Source: Calothrix brevissima NIES-22
GTDB taxonomy: Bacteria; Cyanobacteriota; Cyanobacteriia; Cyanobacteriales; Nostocaceae
Direction of reading: 5' to 3'
Assembly: GCF_002367995.1 (NCBI RefSeq)
Contig: NZ_AP018207.1
Coordinates: 2,034,333-2,098,332 of the forward strand
DNA length: 64,000 bases
This document shows positions 5,520 to 42,525 of this stretch, piece by piece. How positions within the stretch are numbered: position 1 is the first letter of the stretch; the number at the start of each line of letters is the position of its first letter. Made by a program: the position numbers and the translations under genes. The notes under the pieces were generated by a model that saw nothing but the letters and a program-made list of their open reading frames with translations, made no database searches and was not told where the DNA came from.

Positions 5520-7559
5520 TTAAGAAGCAGTAAGCGTGGAATTCCTGGCTATATATGATGAATCTAGAGATTTCATCTCCATACCATTGAGAATAATTCC
5601 CATTGGTCTAACTTTTTGTTGATTTAGTTGAGTCAGCGCCTTTTGGAATAAATATCTTTGACTTACTCCCGGACGAACAACAAACAACACGCTAGAGATG
5701 ATAGAAGCCATCAAAGTGGTTTCAGTAGCTGAACAAATAGAGGCGCTATCTATCAGGATGTAGTCGTAATTGCCCTTCTCTTGTAAGGTTTGTAGAGAAT
5801 GTTCAAATTCTCTGCTGACAAGAAAATCAACTAATTGTCTCTCAGGGTGATATACCGTCATCAGATCGATATTCGGACGAATAGAAATCGGTCGATCTGA
5901 TGTGTGAGAGAAAGGTAACTCTGAGTTTTCTAATGTGGCGCTGAGTCCCGATCGAGAGCGATCGGTATCAACAATTAAGATGCGTAAACCTAAGGTAGTC
6001 AGTGCGATCGCTAAACCTAAGACAACAGTAGTTTTACCCTCTCCAGATGCGGGACTGCTCACCATAAACCGCCGATTTTCTAGGTTCATGGCGTTAATAG
6101 CTAAAGCCATCCTCTGGAATTCGAGATTTGTTTCTGTTTCTACAGCAGGGCGATTTTGTAAAACCTTGAACTGAGGAACAGCTCCCAAAATGGGAATTTC
6201 TGTGAGGTGTAAATCTTCTGCACTTAATAAAGGATTGCGACTTTCTAGGAACAACGCCAAAGCCGCACTACCAAAAATTCCCGCTAAAATTACACCAATG
6301 GCGATTTTTAGTTGACTGTTGCTAGAAGGTTGGACTTCAACATTAGGTTGATCTAAAACTTGGATACTCGGAAAAGCACTAAAAGAATTTAGTTTTGCTT
6401 CTTGCACTTTACCGACTAAACCGTTATATACCCCTTCAGCAATCTTATATTGATGTTGTAGTTCTAATAATTTTGCTTGATTTGGCGGAAAAGTTTGTAG
6501 TGTCTGATTTAACTCATCAATTTGTTTTTTTAGTTGAATTTCTTGATTTTGCAAGGCGCTGGTATTTGCTTCTGCTAATACCAAATTCTGAATTAATTCT
6601 CCATAGTTTTCACCAATTGAGGAATTCACGCCCTCTGTATTCGCTGCTGCTTGCGAGATATATTGTGTTAACTGTTTTGATAATTGCTGGCGCTGATTGA
6701 GCAAATTTTGTACCGTTGGGTGATTGGGGGTAAATTTTGCTTCAGCTTCTAACAGTGGTACCTCTAGCTCGACTAATTTCTGACGGATGAATTGAAAATC
6801 GCGATTTTCTGCTAGGCTGAGGGAACGAATAGCGCGATCGGAGCTTAAGCCAATGCGCTGGGAAAGCTCTTTAACATGAGCTTGCGATGACTTATACTGA
6901 GCAATGACTTGGGAACGAGTTGTAGTTAATTGTGCAATAGCTGCAACAGTTTCGCGAATTTGATTGTCACTACTGACTAATCCAGAACTTTGTTGAAATT
7001 CTGTGAGTCTTGTTTGGGCTTGGCGTAAATTTCTCAAGGATTGATTGAGTTCTGCACGCATAAATTCAGAACGCTGCATAGCGTCATTTTGCCGCAGCTG
7101 GTTCATCCGTTGTTGAAATACATTCAACAATCTTCTCGCCCTTCCTTGAGCTGTCTCCTCATCAGAACCATGTACGGTAATTGAGATAATAGTTGATTCA
7201 CTTTGAGGCGCAACAGTAAAAAGTTGTCGATAACTACTGATATTGGCAAACTCAGCTTTTTCTGGATCGGAATTCCAAAGTTGGCTCAAAGTCTGATCGC
7301 TCAAAAGGATTGATGAAAAGATATTCAGGGGATTAACCTGTTGAGAAAAAACTACGCCACCACTGTTGAGACTGCCGAGAGTTCCTAAATCTGCGGTTAA
7401 GCCGCTACTTGTAACTGGTAGAATTAACTGAGTCTTCGCAATCCAAATCTGAGGAACTCTCAAGATCAGGACAGAGGCGATCGCAAATAAAACTGTATTA
7501 AAACTTGCGAGAAAGATCCAATGTCTCAACAAGATTGCAATAACTCTATTCATAACCAT
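5520..7559 (-). CDS. Wzc-like polysaccharide co-polymerase / BY-kinase-type ATPase
   Basis: The 679-residue protein has the layout of a fused polysaccharide co-polymerase. A first membrane segment lies at about residues 8-32, a Wzz-type periplasmic region with long coiled coil fills about 150-390, a second membrane segment follows near 418-440 (IAIGVILAGIFGSAALALFL), and a cytoplasmic P-loop domain ends the protein. The ATPase shows Walker A in SPASGEGKTTV, Walker A-prime in ILIVDTDRSRSG and Walker B in YDYILIDSAS. Such proteins set chain length and couple polymerisation to export of exopolysaccharide. The C terminus (LDSSYIARNSTLTAS) has one tyrosine and no tyrosine cluster, so regulation by multi-site autophosphorylation, as in proteobacterial Wzc, is doubtful. 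It is the first gene of the minus-strand cluster. Confidence 0.87.
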   Translation of the reverse strand: MVMNRVIAILLRHWIFLASFNTVLFAIASVLILRVPQIWIAKTQLILPVTSSGLTADLGTLGSLNSGGVVFSQQVNPLNIFSSILLSDQTLSQLWNSDPEKAEFANISSYRQLFTVAPQSESTIISITVHGSDEETAQGRARRLLNVFQQRMNQLRQNDAMQRSEFMRAELNQSLRNLRQAQTRLTEFQQSSGLVSSDNQIRETVAAIAQLTTTRSQVIAQYKSSQAHVKELSQRIGLSSDRAIRSLSLAENRDFQFIRQKLVELEVPLLEAEAKFTPNHPTVQNLLNQRQQLSKQLTQYISQAAANTEGVNSSIGENYGELIQNLVLAEANTSALQNQEIQLKKQIDELNQTLQTFPPNQAKLLELQHQYKIAEGVYNGLVGKVQEAKLNSFSAFPSIQVLDQPNVEVQPSSNSQLKIAIGVILAGIFGSAALALFLESRNPLLSAEDLHLTEIPILGAVPQFKVLQNRPAVETETNLEFQRMALAINAMNLENRRFMVSSPASGEGKTTVVLGLAIALTTLGLRILIVDTDRSRSGLSATLENSELPFSHTSDRPISIRPNIDLMTVYHPERQLVDFLVSREFEHSLQTLQEKGNYDYILIDSASICSATETTLMASIISSVLFVVRPGVSQRYLFQKALTQLNQQKVRPMGIILNGMEMKSLDSSYIARNSTLTAS

Positions 7560-33952: not shown

Positions 33953-36922
33953 TTAATTAACTTTGAAAGTCTCCACAGTAGCTTGTAATTCCTGGGAAAT
34001 TTCAACAGTTTGTTTCAGAGATTGAGAAGCTTGATGAGAGTAAGTACTCGTGAGGTTAGAGACTTGATAAATATCTTGCATGAGTTTGCTGACTGATTGC
34101 GATGTCTTCACTTGAGATTCTGTGGCTAAAGAAATCGACTGCACCAAATCATCAATTTGTTGGGATACATAGATAATCTGATTCAGGGAAGTTTTGGCAT
34201 TTTCAACAATGCTAGTTCCTTCTACTACCTGATTAGTTCCTAGTTCCATTGCTGTCACTACTTCATTGGTTTCCCGTTGAATCTTATCGACAACTTGGGT
34301 AATTTCTTGAGTCGCTTCCGAACATCTAGCTGCTAGTGCTGCTACTTCTTCAGCAATCATGGCAAAACCTTCGCCTTCAACACCAGATCTTGTAGCTTCT
34401 AACCCAGCATTAATTGCTAAAAAGTTAGTTTGCATAGCTATTTGATTGATTAAAGCAACTACTTGGGAAATTTGTTGTGAGGATTCACCAAGACGCTTAA
34501 CTTTTTTAGCTGTGTCGCCAATTGTGGTGCGGAGTTTGAAAATATTTTGTACTGCTCGATCTATGGCTTGACCATTTTCTTGCGCCGCACCAGAGGCTGT
34601 GTGAGCAAATACAGCAGCCTGTTTAGCGTTATCTGCCACAGTGGCAATGGAATCTCTCATTTGATCTATACTCACCAAACTCAGGCTGATATCGTCTGCT
34701 TGTTTGATGACGGTATCGGCGAGTTGGTGAATTGCAACTTCGTTTTCGCCAATCGCTGTATTTACCTGAATTGCTGAAGTTTTGACTTTGGTAACAATGG
34801 CTCTAAGACTTTCCACAATGGAGTTGAAAAAGTCAGCAACAGTACCTAGTTCTCCCATTGTGACTTCAGAACGTACTGTGAGATCGCCTTGGGATGCACC
34901 TTCAATATCTTTGAGCAGAGTGAGTATTTGCTGTTGTACTGCTTCGTTGTATTGACGTTGCTCAATTGCTGCAGTTTCAGCGTGATAACGGGCGGTGTCT
35001 ATTTGCTCTAGAAGGCTAGATTGCTCTAGCGCATAACCTACGGGAATTGCTACCTGTCTCAATAATTCAATTTCTAATTCTTGCCATTTACGGGAAGCAG
35101 AACATTGATGGGCGATGAGCAAGCCATATAATTTGTTGTCGAGTAGAATTGGTGCTACTAAATTGGCTTTGACAGCAAATTCTTCTAATTGATTGATATG
35201 ACAATCTGTTAAGCCAGCAGCGTAGATGTTTTCTGTGACTTGCACCCGGCCGTTTTGGTATTTCTCTACATAATTATTAATGAAACAAGGGTCGATGATT
35301 TCTTGCCCTAATGTACTTGGCCAATCACTATCAACTGATTCAGCAATAATTTTACCTGCCCAATTTTCGTCAAAATAGTAGACAATCACGCGATCTGCTT
35401 GGATTGCTTCTCTGGTACTGGTAACTGCTACATCTAAGATATGTGCTGTGTTCAGCGAACCACGGAAACGTGCTGTAATTTCATTGACTAACTGGGATAA
35501 TTGGGCTTGATTTTCCAGGCGGATAGCTTGTGCTGTCATGGCGTCTGCCATGCGATTAAAAGTATTAGCTAGTTGTCCTACTTCATCGTTGCTATAGATT
35601 TCGCAACGAGCATAGCGATCGCCACGAGCAAATTTGTGGGCTGTTTGCTCTAGTTGCTGAATCGGTTTAACTACTCCCCGCTTTAAAATCAATGTCCAGA
35701 AGATTACGAGTACTAATGCTAAATTAACTGCAATTACTTCTACCCAAAAGCTATTTGCTAGTAATTGATTGATTGCTGTTTCTGGAGTTCCTCGCACTAA
35801 AATAGCAGCAGGTTTTTCATCAAACACATTGGTAGCTTGCTCGTCTGTTTCTATGATTTTATTGGGTACAGATTGGGCAGCCATTGCATAGGTTTGATTA
35901 CCTAATTTTATCTTGGCTGTCACGGGGCTACCTTTGGCGTTGGCTGCTGCTGCTAATAATGCCAAATCTTTTTGGGGTAATTTAACATTACTTTGGGCTT
36001 GATTAATATTTGGCAGTTCGCCTTGATCTAAAGATGTTGCTAGGGCAAATTCACCGTTTGGCTGGCGTAAATACACCGCACTATAACCACCAGATGTTGC
36101 TTTTAATGTATCTTTGACAATTTGGTCTTTACCATTGACAATTTCACCAGCAATTAAGGCTCCGACAACAGCGTTGGTTTGGGGATTTTTTACAGGTGTG
36201 ACTGTATAGCGAATCAAAGCATTTTGATTGTTCAATCCAGCAGCTAATACTGGTAATTCTTTACTTAAATCCGCTACATTAATAATGCGGCTGGCTTTAA
36301 TTGTTTGCGGATTTGCTAAGACATCACTAACTAAATTATCCGGATTAAATATTTCCCCATTACGGTTGGTGTTGGCGTTGGCAATAATCTGAAAATTATC
36401 GCCAACTAGGGTGACATATTCGATTTTATTAATTTTACTGGTGCTGTCGAGAATTTGCTTGACTTCTGTTTGTAAGTCCTGATTTAAAGCTTGTCCTGAT
36501 GAATGCAAAATCGCGGCTTTTACTAAGGTGGGATTTTCAGATTGACTAAGCAATCCTAAAGCCATTTGATTGATTTTACTATTGTAATTAATATCTGCGA
36601 TCGCTAGTTCTGATTTGGAGCGATCGAAGGATATATTTTGTAATCCAGTAGAGATTAAACTTCTTCCGACTACACTAATACCAACAATCCCAATTAATTG
36701 CGATGCTGTCAGGGCAATTAGTTGCTTGTGATTAATAGAAAGATTAGCAAATCGCTGGGATAAAGATTGGATTAATGTTTGATAATTAGCCTTCTTGGTT
36801 TGAATTTTCGCAAATAAACCAGAATTGGAATTGTTCTTAAATTCAACAATTTGTGGTTTAAAGGAAGATAGCTGAGATTTTGCTACCAATCCAGTTTTCG
36901 CGGGATGTAATCCATTGTTCAT
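33953..36922 (-). CDS. Methyl-accepting chemotaxis protein with Cache, HAMP and bilin-lineage GAF domain (PixJ-like)
   Basis: The 989-residue receptor has a membrane helix near 65-90, a periplasmic double-Cache-like region to about 390, a second helix (VEVIAVNLALVLVIFWTLIL), a HAMP domain, a GAF domain (about 480-650), a second HAMP-like stretch and a C-terminal MCP signalling domain with the tip VVALINQIAMQTNFLAINAG. The GAF domain resembles cyanobacteriochromes: IYAAGLTDCHINQLEEF has Cys574-His575 at the usual bilin-attachment site, and IDPCF (Cys546) lies near the DXCF position. If it carries phycocyanobilin, the protein would be a phototaxis receptor of the PixJ/PtxD kind. No CheA, CheW or CheY genes are adjacent. 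Bilin binding is inference. Confidence 0.85.
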   Translation of the reverse strand: MNNGLHPAKTGLVAKSQLSSFKPQIVEFKNNSNSGLFAKIQTKKANYQTLIQSLSQRFANLSINHKQLIALTASQLIGIVGISVVGRSLISTGLQNISFDRSKSELAIADINYNSKINQMALGLLSQSENPTLVKAAILHSSGQALNQDLQTEVKQILDSTSKINKIEYVTLVGDNFQIIANANTNRNGEIFNPDNLVSDVLANPQTIKASRIINVADLSKELPVLAAGLNNQNALIRYTVTPVKNPQTNAVVGALIAGEIVNGKDQIVKDTLKATSGGYSAVYLRQPNGEFALATSLDQGELPNINQAQSNVKLPQKDLALLAAAANAKGSPVTAKIKLGNQTYAMAAQSVPNKIIETDEQATNVFDEKPAAILVRGTPETAINQLLANSFWVEVIAVNLALVLVIFWTLILKRGVVKPIQQLEQTAHKFARGDRYARCEIYSNDEVGQLANTFNRMADAMTAQAIRLENQAQLSQLVNEITARFRGSLNTAHILDVAVTSTREAIQADRVIVYYFDENWAGKIIAESVDSDWPSTLGQEIIDPCFINNYVEKYQNGRVQVTENIYAAGLTDCHINQLEEFAVKANLVAPILLDNKLYGLLIAHQCSASRKWQELEIELLRQVAIPVGYALEQSSLLEQIDTARYHAETAAIEQRQYNEAVQQQILTLLKDIEGASQGDLTVRSEVTMGELGTVADFFNSIVESLRAIVTKVKTSAIQVNTAIGENEVAIHQLADTVIKQADDISLSLVSIDQMRDSIATVADNAKQAAVFAHTASGAAQENGQAIDRAVQNIFKLRTTIGDTAKKVKRLGESSQQISQVVALINQIAMQTNFLAINAGLEATRSGVEGEGFAMIAEEVAALAARCSEATQEITQVVDKIQRETNEVVTAMELGTNQVVEGTSIVENAKTSLNQIIYVSQQIDDLVQSISLATESQVKTSQSVSKLMQDIYQVSNLTSTYSHQASQSLKQTVEISQELQATVETFKVN

Positions 36923-38015
36923 AAATCAGTTTTTACCTGTCAGTCAGTTAGTCTACCCCAATAAATAATTTCAAATTACTCAACTACTTGCTTGGGAAAA
37001 TAGAAGAGTTAACTGCCAGCCTGTTTGTCAAAAAGGAACTTTAACTTAAAAATAGAGTATTATTTATGACTGAAACTTTGTGCAAACTAAACATTTGATG
37101 CTGTAGTTTTCACGGTTTCTCATTTAATTAATGTATAAATAGCCACAATAGATAATTGTGCTATTTAGCTCTTATTAATATGATAATACTACTATGGGTA
37201 AATGTACATAAATTAATAGCGAAATTGCGCTTCTTAAAGTAAGTTTTGCTCACAGAAAATTTATAAAGCTTACTTATAAAATGCTTTATAATATTAGATT
37301 TACCATATTTAAGATAACTCTGCAAAACTTGCCTGGAATTTCTCGATACCAGAAGCAACAAAATAAAAAGTCTAGGTGCTGTAGTTAGTATTAATCCTGA
37401 CTTTTTAATTCACAACATTTCCACAGGCGCTACACCTGAAATATCAGGGTGAGAATATGTGGAAAAATTACCACTGATATCAGGTTCATGTCAAGTTCTT
37501 AACTGCTTAATTCTGGGATAATACGACTACTTGTAAAAGAAGTGTGTGATTTTGCTATTTTAGTTACCTACAAAGTATAAGTAATGTTTCATTGAGACTT
37601 TGAATTTTGTTAGAGATTTTAAAAGATTTTTGTAACAAAATTAAAATTTACAGTTTAATAACTATTTTTGTCAAGTCAAACAAATTAAATATAAAACTGA
37701 GCGATCGCTGGGATGCAAAATACTAAATATGCTGGTTATTTTTGCACAAATACGTCAGCAAGCTAGTACCTTGCTGCTTTGCAGTGTTGTCGCCAAGCGC
37801 CACACCACAGATGAGAATACAGTACTGTACTCTCGGCGGTAACTTTTCAATCGTTAAATGGGATTGCTATATAAGTCTTTTGACTTTTGACTTTTGACTT
37901 TTAAAATAGCGGTACTAGCCATTTTTCTAGGATCAATTCTCCCCATTTTTCCGATGTCAGCGATCGCGAAAACAGGTGAGGATATGAACATCGAAAAAAT
38001 GGATGGTAAAAATAG
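36923..38015. other. Long AT-rich intergenic region
   Basis: This gap of almost 1.1 kb lies between the divergent chemoreceptor and pseudoprotease genes. It holds a TTTGACT heptamer array at 37880-37903 and a 15-bp inverted repeat at 37943-38002. Minus-strand frames at 37161-37361 and 37901-38092 lack support. I see no RNA gene with confidence. Confidence 0.5.
37943..38002 (+). promoter_or_regulatory. Inverted repeat just upstream of the pseudoprotease start
   Basis: CCATTTTTCCGATGT (37943-37957) and ACATCGAAAAAATGG (37988-38002) pair over 15 positions with one mismatch and a 30-nt loop containing a HIP1-like GCGATCGC. The right arm ends 13 nt before the ATG at 38016, so an RNA hairpin here would sit over the ribosome-binding region. 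A regulatory role is inference. Confidence 0.4.
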
Positions 38016-39005
38016 ATGTCTTCATTACAAGAATTGTCCAACAGTATAGCTGATACCGTAGAGCAAGCCGGATTTGCTGTAGTTGCAGTCAATGCGGGTA
38101 CAAGAATATCCCCTAGTGGTATTCACTGGCGTCAAGGTATTATTGTCACCTCAGATGAGTCACTGCCACGTTATGATGAAATCACCGTAACTCTAGCAGA
38201 TGGTCGCTCTGTAGCCGCTACGCACCTGGGTCATGACTCTAGTACTGATGTGGCTGTATTTCAGATGGAAACTGTAGAAACACCTGTAGCTAAAATTGGT
38301 GATGCCACTAGCTTGAAAGTAGGTCATTTGGTATTAGGAATTGCGAGAAGTTATGAAGGTGATTTGCGGGCGGCTTTAGGTACTGTTAGTGTAGTTAGCG
38401 GTGCTTGGCAGAGTATGGCTGGTGGTAATATCGACCAATTTATCCGCCCAGATATGACTCTTTACCCTGGTTTTGCTGGGGGGCCATTGGTAGATGCCGC
38501 AGGTTATGTAGTAGGTATGAATACATCAGGTAAGCGGGGTACAGCTTTAACTATACCTGCGGCTACAGTGAATCGTGTAGTTGAGCAGTTACTGGCTAGA
38601 GGTCATATTGCCAGAGGTTATTTGGGTTTGGGAATGCAACCTGTACGCTTACCAAATAATCTAATCGCCGCTTTAAATTTAACTGTACCTACTGGTGTAA
38701 TTGTTGTCAATGTTGAATCTGGGGGCCCGGCTGACAATGCAGGTGTACTGTTAGGTGATGTGTTAGTGAAATTCGATGGTATGACTGTCAGCGATACCGG
38801 TGATGTGATGGCGTTGCTGAATAGTAGCGATCGCGTCGGTAAAACTGTCCCAGTGCAATTAGTCCGGGGTGGGGTGTTGATAGAAATAGCGATCGCCATT
38901 GGCGAACGACCATTTGAGCAATCTGCACGTTCTGAAGACAGGGAAAAAGCTGATAGCGATCGCCATCACAGACATGGGAGACATGGTAGGAGAGGTAGGC
39001 GGTAG
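38016..39005 (+). CDS. HtrA/trypsin-like pseudoprotease with PDZ domain and His/Arg-rich tail
   Basis: The 329-residue protein keeps the HtrA layout: trypsin-like domain (about 15-185), PDZ domain (about 195-290) and a C-terminal tail rich in His and Arg. Compared with the active neighbour, the catalytic residues are gone. The TNAHV motif is TSDES here, with Glu48 at the His position, and the serine motif PGNSGGPL is PGFAGGPL, with Ala154 for Ser. Asp78 (TDVAV) remains. It should not cleave peptides but may bind substrate or its neighbour. There is no signal peptide, so a cytoplasmic location is likely. It is the first gene of a plus-strand run with the HtrA-like protease and a LuxR-type regulator. 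Confidence 0.82.
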   Translation: MSSLQELSNSIADTVEQAGFAVVAVNAGTRISPSGIHWRQGIIVTSDESLPRYDEITVTLADGRSVAATHLGHDSSTDVAVFQMETVETPVAKIGDATSLKVGHLVLGIARSYEGDLRAALGTVSVVSGAWQSMAGGNIDQFIRPDMTLYPGFAGGPLVDAAGYVVGMNTSGKRGTALTIPAATVNRVVEQLLARGHIARGYLGLGMQPVRLPNNLIAALNLTVPTGVIVVNVESGGPADNAGVLLGDVLVKFDGMTVSDTGDVMALLNSSDRVGKTVPVQLVRGGVLIEIAIAIGERPFEQSARSEDREKADSDRHHRHGRHGRRGRR

Positions 39006-39021
39006 TTGATGGTTATTTATT

Positions 39022-39055
39022 AGAGACGCGATGAACCCTTGTCTGTACAAGTGTC
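39022..39055. repeat. Dispersed repeat (agacgcgatgaacccttgtct type)
   Basis: GAGACGCGATGAACCCTTGT then CTGTACAA lies in the 90-bp gap between the pseudoprotease and protease genes. On the minus strand this repeat reads MYRQGFIAS, an artefactual peptide seen again at 62310-62338. Confidence 0.75.
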
Positions 39056-39095
39056 ATTTGTCTGTGCAATAGCTTGAGGTGTTTTTTAGGTGAAT

Positions 39096-39938
39096 ATGAA
39101 TAGCGCGATCGTTACCCAGTTTAGTGATGAGTTAGCAAGTCTTGCTGCTAAGTTACGCCATAGTACGGTGAAGGTTTACAGCAATTCCCCAGGTGTGGGT
39201 TCTGGTGTAATTTGGCAAAGTGATGGCTTAATTGTTACTAACGCCCATGTGGCAATTACTAACAAAGCAAAAGTAGAATTGGCGGATGGACGAGTATTTG
39301 AGGCTGTACGCACCCATTTCGATCCGCAGCAAGATTTAGCCGCCTTGAAAATTTCTACCTCTGATTTACAGGTTGCAACTATTGGTGATTCGGATGCATT
39401 GAGAGTGGGTGAGTTAGTTGTGGCGGTGGGTAATCCTTTTGCGGATAGTGGTGCAGTTACCGCAGGAACAATTCAGGCGCGTCATCCACAAGCGGTGATG
39501 GCTGATATTCGGCTGTATCCCGGTAATTCTGGAGGGCCGCTAGCTGACTGTTTCGGTCGAGTTGTGGGAATTAACACAATGGTTGTCAACGGTTTAGCGG
39601 TGGCAATTCCCAGTTTAACTGTTAACCGCTTTTTACTGGCTGGGAGTCGTCCCAAGTTGGGGGTGACACTGCAACCCGTACTAATAGGACAACGCCAGTT
39701 TGGGTTATTGGTTTTGTCTGTGGTGGGGGAAAGCGTCGCCGCGATCGCAGGGGTGCAAGTTGGTGATGTGTTAATTGGAGTTGGCGGAAATTTATTGACT
39801 CAAACCAGCGACTTAGCCCACTATCTACAACAAAGCCAGAATCAAACATCATTACCTTTACAACTCTGGCGAAGCGGTCAGCAATATTTAGTTTATGTTG
39901 ACTTACAAGCCGGGAAAACTGCTGTGGAGGTCACATGA
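39096..39938 (+). CDS. HtrA-like (trypsin/PDZ) serine protease, cytoplasmic
   Basis: The 280-residue protein carries a complete trypsin-type triad: His51 in VTNAHVA, Asp80 in QQDLAALKI and Ser145 in YPGNSGGPLADCFG. A PDZ-like domain fills the last 90 residues (PKLGVTLQPV, GVQVGDVLIGVGGN). It is shorter than DegP/HhoA-type proteases and has no signal or membrane segment, so it probably acts inside the cell. The ATG at 39096 fits the AGGTG motif better than the in-frame GTG at 39090. It follows the pseudoprotease by about 90 bp and overlaps the LuxR-type regulator by 4 bp. The pairing suggests that the inactive partner presents substrates or limits activity; that is inference. Confidence 0.87.
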   Translation: MNSAIVTQFSDELASLAAKLRHSTVKVYSNSPGVGSGVIWQSDGLIVTNAHVAITNKAKVELADGRVFEAVRTHFDPQQDLAALKISTSDLQVATIGDSDALRVGELVVAVGNPFADSGAVTAGTIQARHPQAVMADIRLYPGNSGGPLADCFGRVVGINTMVVNGLAVAIPSLTVNRFLLAGSRPKLGVTLQPVLIGQRQFGLLVLSVVGESVAAIAGVQVGDVLIGVGGNLLTQTSDLAHYLQQSQNQTSLPLQLWRSGQQYLVYVDLQAGKTAVEVT

Positions 39939-40570
39939 TCCGGGTGGTAGTGGTTGCTACTTCTCCTGTAGTGCGGGCGGGTTTAGCAGCTGTGGTTGGG
40001 AGTGCAAATTCTCAGCTGATGGTGGTGGGGAGTGCAGCTGACTTGGATAGTTTAACCAGGGAAATTGGGGAATTACAGCCTGATGTCGTTTTGCTGGATT
40101 TAGGTAGTAATCCCCAACCATCTATTTGGGAAAAATTGTTGCTGATTCAAGAGGAGGAAGATTCTGTAGAATTCTTGATAATTGCCGATGAATCAGAAAG
40201 TTTTGACTTAGAAGCTGCAATTAGTTCTGGTATTCGGGGAATATTGCCCGGTGAGAGTACAGAATCAGAAATTATCGCTGGGTTGATCGCGATCGCCCAA
40301 GGGCTAATAGTGCTACATCCAGATTTTTTAGATTTACTCTCCTTCCGGGAAAAAGTGGCAACTACTCCAGTAATTACTCTGACACCCAGAGAAATTGAAG
40401 TATTAGCAATGCTGGGTTCTGGCTTAGGTAATAAAGCGATCGCTAAACAGTTACAAATATCAGAACATACGGTGAAGTTTCATATCTCATCGATTTTTCA
40501 AAAGCTGGCTGTCTCTAGCCGGACTGAGGCTGTAACTGTTGGTGTCAGGCTAGGTTTGATTATGCTTTAA
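39935..40570 (+). CDS. NarL/LuxR-type regulator with atypical receiver domain
   Basis: The 211-residue protein has a receiver-like N-terminal domain (about 1-120) and a LuxR-type helix-turn-helix (LTPREIEVLAMLGSGLGNKA, LQISEHTVKFHISSIFQKL). In the receiver the acidic pair is replaced (VVVVATSPVVRAG), the Thr/Ser is Ala (IIADESES) and the Lys is missing (GILPGES); only the Asp in VVLLDLG remains. Normal aspartyl phosphorylation is therefore unlikely, and control could come through protein contact or proteolysis. Its start overlaps the protease stop by ATGA, so the protease and regulator are made together. Confidence 0.85.
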   Translation: MIRVVVVATSPVVRAGLAAVVGSANSQLMVVGSAADLDSLTREIGELQPDVVLLDLGSNPQPSIWEKLLLIQEEEDSVEFLIIADESESFDLEAAISSGIRGILPGESTESEIIAGLIAIAQGLIVLHPDFLDLLSFREKVATTPVITLTPREIEVLAMLGSGLGNKAIAKQLQISEHTVKFHISSIFQKLAVSSRTEAVTVGVRLGLIML

Positions 40571-41811: not shown

Positions 41812-42525
41812 CTATTCCGCAGTCTCCGGTGGCTCAAATTTGTAACCGTAGCCGCGAACGGTTTTAATGTATTCTGGCACAGTGGTATCTGCTTCCAACT
41901 TTTTGCGTAGCTGACCGATATGCACATCAACAACTCGTCCATCTCCTACATAATCACAACCCCAAATTTTTTGAATTAGCTGGGTACGACTCCAAGCTTG
42001 ACCGGGATGGCTGGCTAAAAAATGGAGAATATTAAATTCTAACGCCGTTAATGGCAGAGGTTTATCGTTCAGCATGACTTCTCTTCCTTCGGGATTAATT
42101 GCTAGCTGGTGAAAGACGAGGCGCTGTGCTGGTGAGGGGTTGACTGTGCGGACGCGGCGCAACAAGGCTTGGACGCGAACTTCTACTTCCGCAAGGCTAA
42201 AGGGTTTACTCATAAAGTCATCTGCACCTGCGGACATGATCTTGATTTTGTCGGCTTCGTCAGTTCGACTACTGAGGATCAGAACTAATACATTAGTGCG
42301 TCGCTGCATTTCTTGGCAGAGGTTATAGCCTGTGGTATCTGGCAAATTCCAATCTAATATCACCAAATCTGGGTTCATTTGCTCAAATACAGTCAGCGCT
42401 GTCTTGCCATCTGCTGCCGACTCTATGTGATACTTGCGGCTTAAAAAGCGATATATCAAATTACGGACGCCGTAGTCGTCATCTACAATCAGAATTTTGG
42501 CATTAGTAGCAGGAACCATCACCAT
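41812..42525 (-). CDS. OmpR/PhoB-family response regulator
   Basis: The 237-residue protein has a full receiver (ILIVDDDYGVR, LVILDWNLPDTTGYN with the phospho-Asp, LSSRTDEADK, FMSKPFS) and a winged-helix DNA-binding domain (LTALEFNILHFLASHPGQAW, DGRVVDVHIGQLRKKLEAD, YIKTVRGYGYKFE). It should bind promoter DNA as a phosphorylation-controlled dimer. No histidine kinase gene is near, so it is an orphan. The in-frame ATG codons at 42525 and 42519 are both possible starts. It is followed by a heptamer array. Which cyanobacterial regulator it corresponds to is not clear to me. Confidence 0.92.
   Translation of the reverse strand: MVMVPATNAKILIVDDDYGVRNLIYRFLSRKYHIESAADGKTALTVFEQMNPDLVILDWNLPDTTGYNLCQEMQRRTNVLVLILSSRTDEADKIKIMSAGADDFMSKPFSLAEVEVRVQALLRRVRTVNPSPAQRLVFHQLAINPEGREVMLNDKPLPLTALEFNILHFLASHPGQAWSRTQLIQKIWGCDYVGDGRVVDVHIGQLRKKLEADTTVPEYIKTVRGYGYKFEPPETAE

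Follow-up and report, generated by a model that had tools for sequence, protein, structure and literature searches.

What ties an HtrA-like protein without a catalytic site, an HtrA-like protease with an intact one and a LuxR-type regulator with an incomplete receiver domain into one run of genes? The question is raised by a locus of the cyanobacterium Calothrix brevissima NIES-22, contained in a stretch of 64,000 nucleotides (hereafter, the window; contig NZ_AP018207.1, positions 2,034,333 to 2,098,332) of its 9.26 Mb genome. An earlier interpretation made from the letters alone (the sequence-only reading) had taken the locus for a cytoplasmic proteolytic switch in which the inactive partner binds substrate or inhibits the protease. 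Comparative analysis firmly establishes the trio as a module conserved among cyanobacteria, with homologues of the first and third genes inherited together and a conserved element upstream, and we tentatively propose that it operates as an autoregulated system. The three open reading frames lie on the plus strand, where the sequence-only reading had placed them:

38016-39005, plus strand: gene 1, a pseudoprotease of HtrA fold followed by a PDZ domain (329 amino acids; Pfam, AlphaFold2 and Foldseek)
39090-39938, plus strand: gene 2, a protease of HtrA fold with a PDZ domain (282 amino acids from a GTG start; alternative ATG at 39096)
39935-40570, plus strand: gene 3, a LuxR/NarL-type regulator with a pseudo-receiver (211 amino acids)

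Pfam analysis identified Trypsin_2 and PDZ domains in both gene 1 and gene 2 and, above cut-off, reported only trypsin-, PDZ-, receiver- and helix-turn-helix (HTH)-type families in the three genes. The AlphaFold2 model of gene 1, built from 95 sequences (predicted local distance difference test, pLDDT, 90.2; predicted TM-score, pTM, 0.82), presents an N-terminal helix at residues 2-19; an earlier model from 25 close sequences (pLDDT 52) was discarded. Among the best 50 Foldseek matches of gene 1, the nearest solved structures are MucD, DegQ, Deg1, AlgW and DegS, at 24-32% identity, and the three methods together assign to gene 1 the chymotrypsin-like fold and following PDZ domain of the HtrA/Deg (S1C) proteases.

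The residues on which the sequence-only reading had been built were confirmed. Gene 1 carries Glu48 at the His position and Ala154 at the Ser position, with Asp78 retained, and gene 2 overlaps the NarL-type gene 3 by ATGA. The triad of gene 2 is intact as claimed; the numbering given for it (H51, D80 and S145) holds from the ATG at 39096, the His, Asp and Ser residues being 53, 82 and 147 when counted from the GTG at 39090. The reported lack of export signals also stood. In the window, neither gene 1 nor gene 2 has an alternative start further upstream by which a signal peptide could be gained. When the first 45 residues were scanned crudely for hydropathy, 2 of 100 homologues of gene 1 and 0 of 81 homologues of gene 2 exceeded 1.8, compared with 2.0-2.5 in three canonical HtrA proteins encoded in the same genome. 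By their starts and this crude measure, genes 1 and 2 thus lack the export signal or membrane anchor of HtrA/Deg proteins.

The distribution of the module was established by searches for homologues of genes 1, 2 and 3 (termed g1, g2 and g3). Of 58 genomes of relatives, 19 contain g1; these are also the 19 that contain g3, and in each the two genes lie a short distance apart on one strand. The g2 gene is present in 16 of these and absent in three. A draw of 386 genomes from across the phylum yielded nine with g1, which are likewise the nine with g3, and a search for g1 among 388 genomes drawn from the order identified it in 49, all 49 loci of which were inspected. In 144 relatives of a distant member (G226), limits of 1e-60 for g1 and 1e-40 for g3 returned 25 genomes each, 23 of them shared, with all 25 g1 matches at 1.7e-87 or better. 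The two genomes found for g3 only correspond to a canonical NarL paralogue (G498) and a contig-edge fragment (G461), and the two found for g1 only to a g3 cut by the contig end (G464) and a g1-g3 fusion (G455). In this fusion (L303:3903-4733), the g1 protease domain, its triad residues intact, is joined to the g3 HTH in one 277-amino-acid frame, with the HTH in place of the PDZ domain.

Altogether, 98 distinct g1 loci were gathered; the closest named loci are those of Tolypothrix and Nostoc. The gene order is g1-(g2)-g3, with a four-base g2/g3 overlap in 67 of the 78 loci having both genes, and its recurrence in many assemblies led us to reject a contig or annotation artefact. The g3 gene adjoins g1 in 95 of 98 loci; two of the others are contig ends (L213 and L228), and one genome, Anabaena azotica FACHB-119 (L039), keeps both g1 and g3 but on different contigs, an arrangement of the kind that the sequence-only reading had named as counting against it. 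Dropped before the counts were L026, L027, L040 and L043 (regarded as duplicating the contigs of L047, L048, L056 and L062), L191 and L204 (g1 identical to L034 and L044), L252 and L253 (paralogues of canonical NarL type that scored close to the 1e-40 limit), L250 (a contig edge with a g3 fragment) and, from a scan of named genomes, L045 and L046 (ordinary or short HtrA proteins: 27% identity; 37 residues). The g3 of the split genome, L142, without g1, was used for g3 counts only, and L302 and L303 were found after the counts and stand outside the 98.

The patchy spread of the module (19 of 58 relatives, 9 of 386 genomes in the phylum) is what might be expected of a conflict or defence system, whose cytoplasmic trypsin-like proteins would act as effectors or decoys akin to those of the NTP-dependent systems of multicellular prokaryotes, where inactive trypsins do occur as effectors (PMC7159879). 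Other features make this quite improbable. The three genes contain no further Pfam family above cut-off, PADLOC matches are at domain level only, the flanks are not conserved (the largest flanking family being present in 11 of 100 loci) and the proteins evolve slowly. As to the partners of such systems, Pfam revealed no EAD, Trypco, MoxR-vWA or STAND domain in the three genes, those models not having been searched by name.

Inspection of the g1 catalytic residues revealed substantial variation. The triad is broken in 72 of 98 g1, with Glu-Asp-Ala in 47; in the remaining dead members His is replaced by Glu, Arg, Ser, Gln or Asp, Ser is replaced by Gly, Glu, Asp, Pro, Val or Ile, or both are, and the triad Asp is retained in 98/98. 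The remaining 26 present His, Asp and Ser (intact here meaning that the three residues are present, nothing more). The sequence-only reading had named homologues with His and Ser kept as evidence that would refute it, and these 26 are of that kind. On the 98-locus g1 tree, which was built without the catalytic columns by a quick method and midpoint-rooted, and has several long branches, parsimony places at least seven changes between intact and dead states, at least three of them forced by starred branches. Intact members occupy deeper branches of this midpoint-rooted tree. Such a count cannot separate loss from gain; since HtrA relatives carry the triad, we infer loss, and g1 inactivation looks like a derived state reached repeatedly. 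The presence of Glu-Asp-Ser in three rows (L061, L203 and L206) suggests that His may be the first catalytic residue lost.

With a dead triad in 72 of 98 members, g1 could be regarded as a protease pseudogene carried along with its neighbours, a notion that we find hardly credible and have rejected on the basis of its low ratios of nonsynonymous to synonymous substitution rates (dN/dS). Over 16 ortholog pairs dN/dS ranges from 0.037 to 0.199, and dead-triad pairs (0.037-0.159, n = 12) and intact pairs (0.057-0.199, n = 4) are alike and low. The g1 PDZ loop is moreover near-invariant, and true decay looks different: in G023 (L296, about 6121-7202), the upstream element described below is present, g1 lies in several pieces, g3 is a C-terminal remnant and no g2 was found in place.

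The active protease, by contrast with g1 and g3, is the part of the module that is lost. The g2 gene is present in 79 of 98 loci and missing in 19, one of them a contig end (L228), with at least 13 changes in presence on the g1 tree (96 rows labelled). Remnants of g2 were detected by tblastn in the g1-g3 gap of L055, L063, L200 and L210, and by eye in that of the nearest relative of the window, L025. Where retained, the triad is intact in 79/79 distinct homologues, 13 of which are shorter than 240 amino acids and 10 of which are without residues at the PDZ loop. Twelve loci (L025, L029, L039, L055, L062, L063, L200, L212, L214, L224, L242 and L251) lack g2 and at the same time carry a broken g1 triad. 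Since g2 is optional, the core of the module comprises g1 and g3.

These data bear directly on the proteolytic switch of the sequence-only reading, considered here in a form in which gene 2 would cleave gene 3 and gene 1 would serve as a decoy, a scaffold or an inhibitor of gene 2. The invariably intact g2 triad and the overlap of its gene with gene 3 speak for such a switch, as does the MamE/MamO pair, in which an inactive HtrA partner can activate an active one (PMC4794232). Against it, the 12 loci without any intact triad keep both g1 and g3 (in L039, with g3 elsewhere), and whole-genome searches of five g2-less genomes (those of L029 and L039, and G010, G028 and G044) gave top hits no stronger than 1e-25 to 3e-29 (34-43% identity), the level of ordinary HtrA proteins; some of these hits are to g1. 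On the strength of these 12 loci, a simple proteolytic switch was rejected as the conserved core, and we consider the scheme in general unlikely. What survives of the original proposal is the three-gene unit without export signals, an inactive partner that likely acts by binding and a regulator unable to use normal phosphorylation; that the module is in essence a proteolytic switch is not supported. The sequence data suggest a switch by binding, not cutting.

Two features of the partners that could serve such binding are conserved:

38616-38897, plus strand: PDZ domain of gene 1, residues 201-294 (PDZ_2, E 1.5e-16), with the loop GYLGLGMQ
40559-40567, plus strand: C-terminal tail of gene 3, Ile-Met-Leu-COOH, a candidate PDZ ligand (95/96 homologues)

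The gene 3 protein combines a GerE HTH (E 1.3e-21), the most conserved part of g3 and typical of NarL/LuxR regulators, with a receiver that scores below threshold (27.6 bits against a cut-off of 30.2). As the sequence-only reading had noted, and as the alignment of the window protein confirms, the acidic pair, Thr and Lys are missing from this receiver; its phospho-acceptor Asp is retained. Across g3, the phospho-acceptor column holds Asp in 55 of 96 and Glu in 30 of 96, both acids of the pair are found in 0 of 96 (one acid in 12), the Thr column has Thr in 21 and Ser in 5 of 96, and Lys is found in its column in 0 of 96, whereas two canonical paralogues have DD, T and K at the corresponding positions. 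Gene 3 thus has a receiver-like domain without its key catalytic residues, a pseudo-receiver, and the alignment supports the view that it cannot use normal phosphorylation.

The g3 C-terminus is of the hydrophobic-x-hydrophobic-COOH type in 95 of 96 homologues, compared with two of 16 NarL/LuxR paralogues of the retrieved loci, with Leu last in 93 and Ile at -2 in 92 of the homologues; the sole exception (L194) is a g3 cut by a stop codon. In this genome (G781), where g3 is split at L194:4841-5527, the g1 triad reads Glu-Asp-Gly. Class II PDZ domains recognise C-termini of this type (PMC2891790). The g1 PDZ carboxylate loop, GYLGxGMQ, is almost invariant as well (Gly201, Gly204 and Gln208 each in 98/98). 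A near-invariant loop and a conserved tail are what would be expected if g1 docked on the tail of g3, and binding between the two is plausible.

The region upstream of gene 1 contains a third conserved feature:

37913-37986, plus strand: conserved upstream element, a candidate operator/promoter (sequence model R1, 63.3 bits; E 1.3e-16 over the whole genome)
37915-37931, plus strand: direct repeat site 1, CTAGCCATTTTTCTAGG (1.34-2.0 bits per column)
37939-37956, plus strand: direct repeat site 2, CTCCCCATTTTTCCGATG (0.76-2.0 bits per column)

The element, located about 100 bases before g1, consists of CTAGCCATTTTTCTAGG, 7 nt, CTCCCCATTTTTCCGATG, about 19 nt and a second conserved block. Column information from 76 aligned loci revealed a sharp upstream edge, dropping from 1.8-2.0 bits at the start of site 1 to 0.86 one base before it and to at most 0.37 in the 24 preceding bases. 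The 42-base core was found at up to 16 mismatches in 87 of 98 loci, the best of 2000 shuffled upstream regions reaching 17, and R1, run on nine of the other 11 loci, detected it in seven (L224, L230, L231, L232, L237, L238 and L240) at E 2e-4 or better. Over the 58 whole genomes, searched with stricter filters under which weak matches can be lost, R1 identified one strong site (E 3e-18 to 2.4e-12) before g1 in each of the 19 module-bearing genomes, where the next-best match was 0.0027; in 38 of the 39 module-free genomes no match was stronger than 9.2e-5, and the one remaining genome, in which the element does score strongly, is G023 with its decayed copy. The genome of the window presents eight further R1 matches at E up to 1 (best, 0.048), which we judged to be due to chance because G027, without g1 and g3, shows twelve. 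No consensus RNA fold was obtained for the element, and Rfam yielded no match up to E 10 in window positions 37500-38200. Its natural reading is as operator and promoter of the operon, to which gene 3 likely binds, and the -10-like second block, some 19 bases past site 2, hints at activation by gene 3.

Having one strong site in every module-bearing genome, each time before g1, would also suit a dedicated regulator without feedback binding. Gene 3 would then sense something else, such as a ligand, the redox state or its own level, and merely set how much of a cytoplasmic HtrA-fold chaperone/protease pair is made, with gene 1 as a holdase output. The position of g3, last in the operon with its frequent overlap with g2, is compatible with this scheme, and pseudo-receivers can be constitutive (PMC12632262). 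We nonetheless regard it as doubtful, for it leaves unexplained the PDZ-ligand-like g3 tail, the L303 fusion and the frequent loss of g1 catalysis while g1 stays tied to g3.

The interpretation that we prefer, and consider possible at close to an even call, is that of an autoregulated cytoplasmic module. Gene 3 would bind the two repeats upstream of gene 1, mainly controlling its own operon, and the gene 1 PDZ domain would dock on the hydrophobic tail of gene 3, altering its activity. Unfolded proteins or free hydrophobic C-termini would compete for this PDZ domain and release gene 3, so that operon output would follow load, and gene 2, where retained, would remove substrates or else one of its two partners. 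We put this titration feedback forward as a proposal; it would resemble that of DnaK and HspR.

Several observations weigh against this interpretation. Two of the 16 NarL/LuxR paralogues share the tail type, these controls being drawn from few genomes (22 rows, of which six family members were set aside and the rest classed by eye), and the conserved g3 tail may serve the HTH fold and not a PDZ domain. The PDZ domain of gene 2 could receive the tail instead, and the L303 fusion, seen in one genome, may be a plain deletion. Because 26 of 98 g1 keep the triad, binding-only action need not hold everywhere. Gene 3 is assigned to the element by co-occurrence, and another factor could bind it. R1 found no match in L229 and L251, nor in L239 and L249 despite their 15 and 16 mismatches, which makes the element doubtful in these four loci, and detected no element before the relocated g3 (L142) or in five non-cyanobacterial loci (L254-L258). 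Lastly, the loci include close relatives, so that the counts are not independent.

Phyla beyond the cyanobacteria were surveyed via plasmids, by inspection of nine regions chosen among the best protein matches, with triads read by eye. In four of the nine, an S1C gene precedes that of a LuxR regulator whose receiver is degenerate or truncated: the S1C triad is intact in Paraburkholderia sprentiae and Deinococcus sp. KNUC1210 and dead in Bradyrhizobium sp. Ash2021 (Glu/Gln) and Rubrobacter indicoceani (Pro/Gly). The four regulators end in IMV, LSV, INL and ITL. The pair is broken in Paraburkholderia phymatum and was not found in regions H2, H13, H19 and H27 or in two further inspected records, and a scan of named genomes, which reaches close relatives only, identified no pair outside the cyanobacteria (22 loci, 20 of them cyanobacterial). 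Somewhat more tentatively than the preferred interpretation, we also envisage a widespread, previously undescribed class of one-operon stress sensors, extending from cyanobacteria to related pairs in Pseudomonadota, Deinococcota and Actinomycetota, in which a cytoplasmic HtrA-fold protein, repeatedly a pseudoprotease, would be the dedicated receptor of a pseudo-receiver LuxR protein and would control it through PDZ-tail docking, with one dedicated promoter per genome. In a separate observation, the R. indicoceani region (L258:1554-4238) encodes a dead S1C protein, a LuxR pseudo-receiver protein and an HtrA protein with an intact triad, that is, the trio in another order and another phylum.

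The module was compared with known systems that share some of its parts. The HtrA/Deg proteases (DegS, DegP, DegQ, AlgW and HhoA/HhoB/HtrA) have the same fold, PDZ domain and domain order as genes 1 and 2. The module proteins differ from them in having no export signal or anchor that we could see, in the mostly absent triad of gene 1 and in their partner, a DNA-binding regulator of the same operon and not a membrane anti-sigma factor. MamE and MamO, located at the magnetosome, likewise pair an active with an inactive HtrA protein (activity in the module being judged from residues only), but include no transcription regulator, and the module proteins score far below cut-off with the curated MamE and MamO models. 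HspR is a MerR-type repressor, last in its operon, with DnaK as its partner. The module resembles that system in encoding its regulator within the operon and in the conserved site, predicted to be bound by gene 3, before the first gene; it differs in that gene 3 is of GerE/NarL type and gene 1 of trypsin/PDZ type by Pfam, whereas DnaK is an ATP-driven chaperone. Gene 3 is comparable to bacterial pseudo-receiver regulators such as NblR, BldM/WhiI and JadR1 in that the acidic pair and Lys of receivers are missing throughout its family. As the sequence-only reading had supposed, no described system of this make-up came to light in titles or abstracts among the matches listed from the openly licensed literature, and we know of none built like the g1-g3 module. 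Its novelty is at the system level, every part being from a known family, and we set it apart as new because a tested feature separates it from each of its near neighbours, namely HtrA proteases, response regulators, HspR-DnaK and MamE/MamO.

Published accounts of these systems add the following. AlgW binds C-termini by its PDZ domain and DegS reads misfolded outer membrane proteins (PMC11642142), in both cases feeding a stress response. MamO is an HtrA pseudoprotease with metal binding and a TauE domain, and inactivation in MamE/MamO arose independently in several taxa (PMC4794232). In Streptomyces, HspR is an autoregulatory repressor of the dnaK operon in which it is encoded, with DnaK as corepressor (PMC2687793). 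Inactive Deg peptidases of Nostoc punctiforme ATCC 29133 and Anabaena variabilis ATCC 29413 were noted in a tree in a 2016 review that suggests their neo-functionalization and in which the words LuxR, response regulator and transcription factor do not occur (PMC4877387); these peptidases may belong to the gene 1 family. A 2025 review of pseudo-receivers calls their switching a mystery and does not contain the word protease (PMC12632262). The module makes both this switching and the role of cytoplasmic HtrA-fold pseudoproteases testable, with its upstream element as a ready-made reporter. It also provides a natural series within one clade, from an intact triad to several dead ones, and because the partner remains the same, and mostly the promoter element too, the transition of a protease into a binding protein can be traced.

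Further features were observed in and around the locus. Gene 1 ends in a His/Arg/Gly-rich tail (38919-39002), also present in four of 24 other relatives compared. Downstream, past an EamA transporter, the minus strand encodes an OmpR-type response regulator (41812-42525), an ordinary neighbour. Upstream of the module, also on the minus strand, lies a large HAMP-GAF-MCP signalling protein (33953-36922), a family that is the upstream neighbour of the module in seven of 100 loci.

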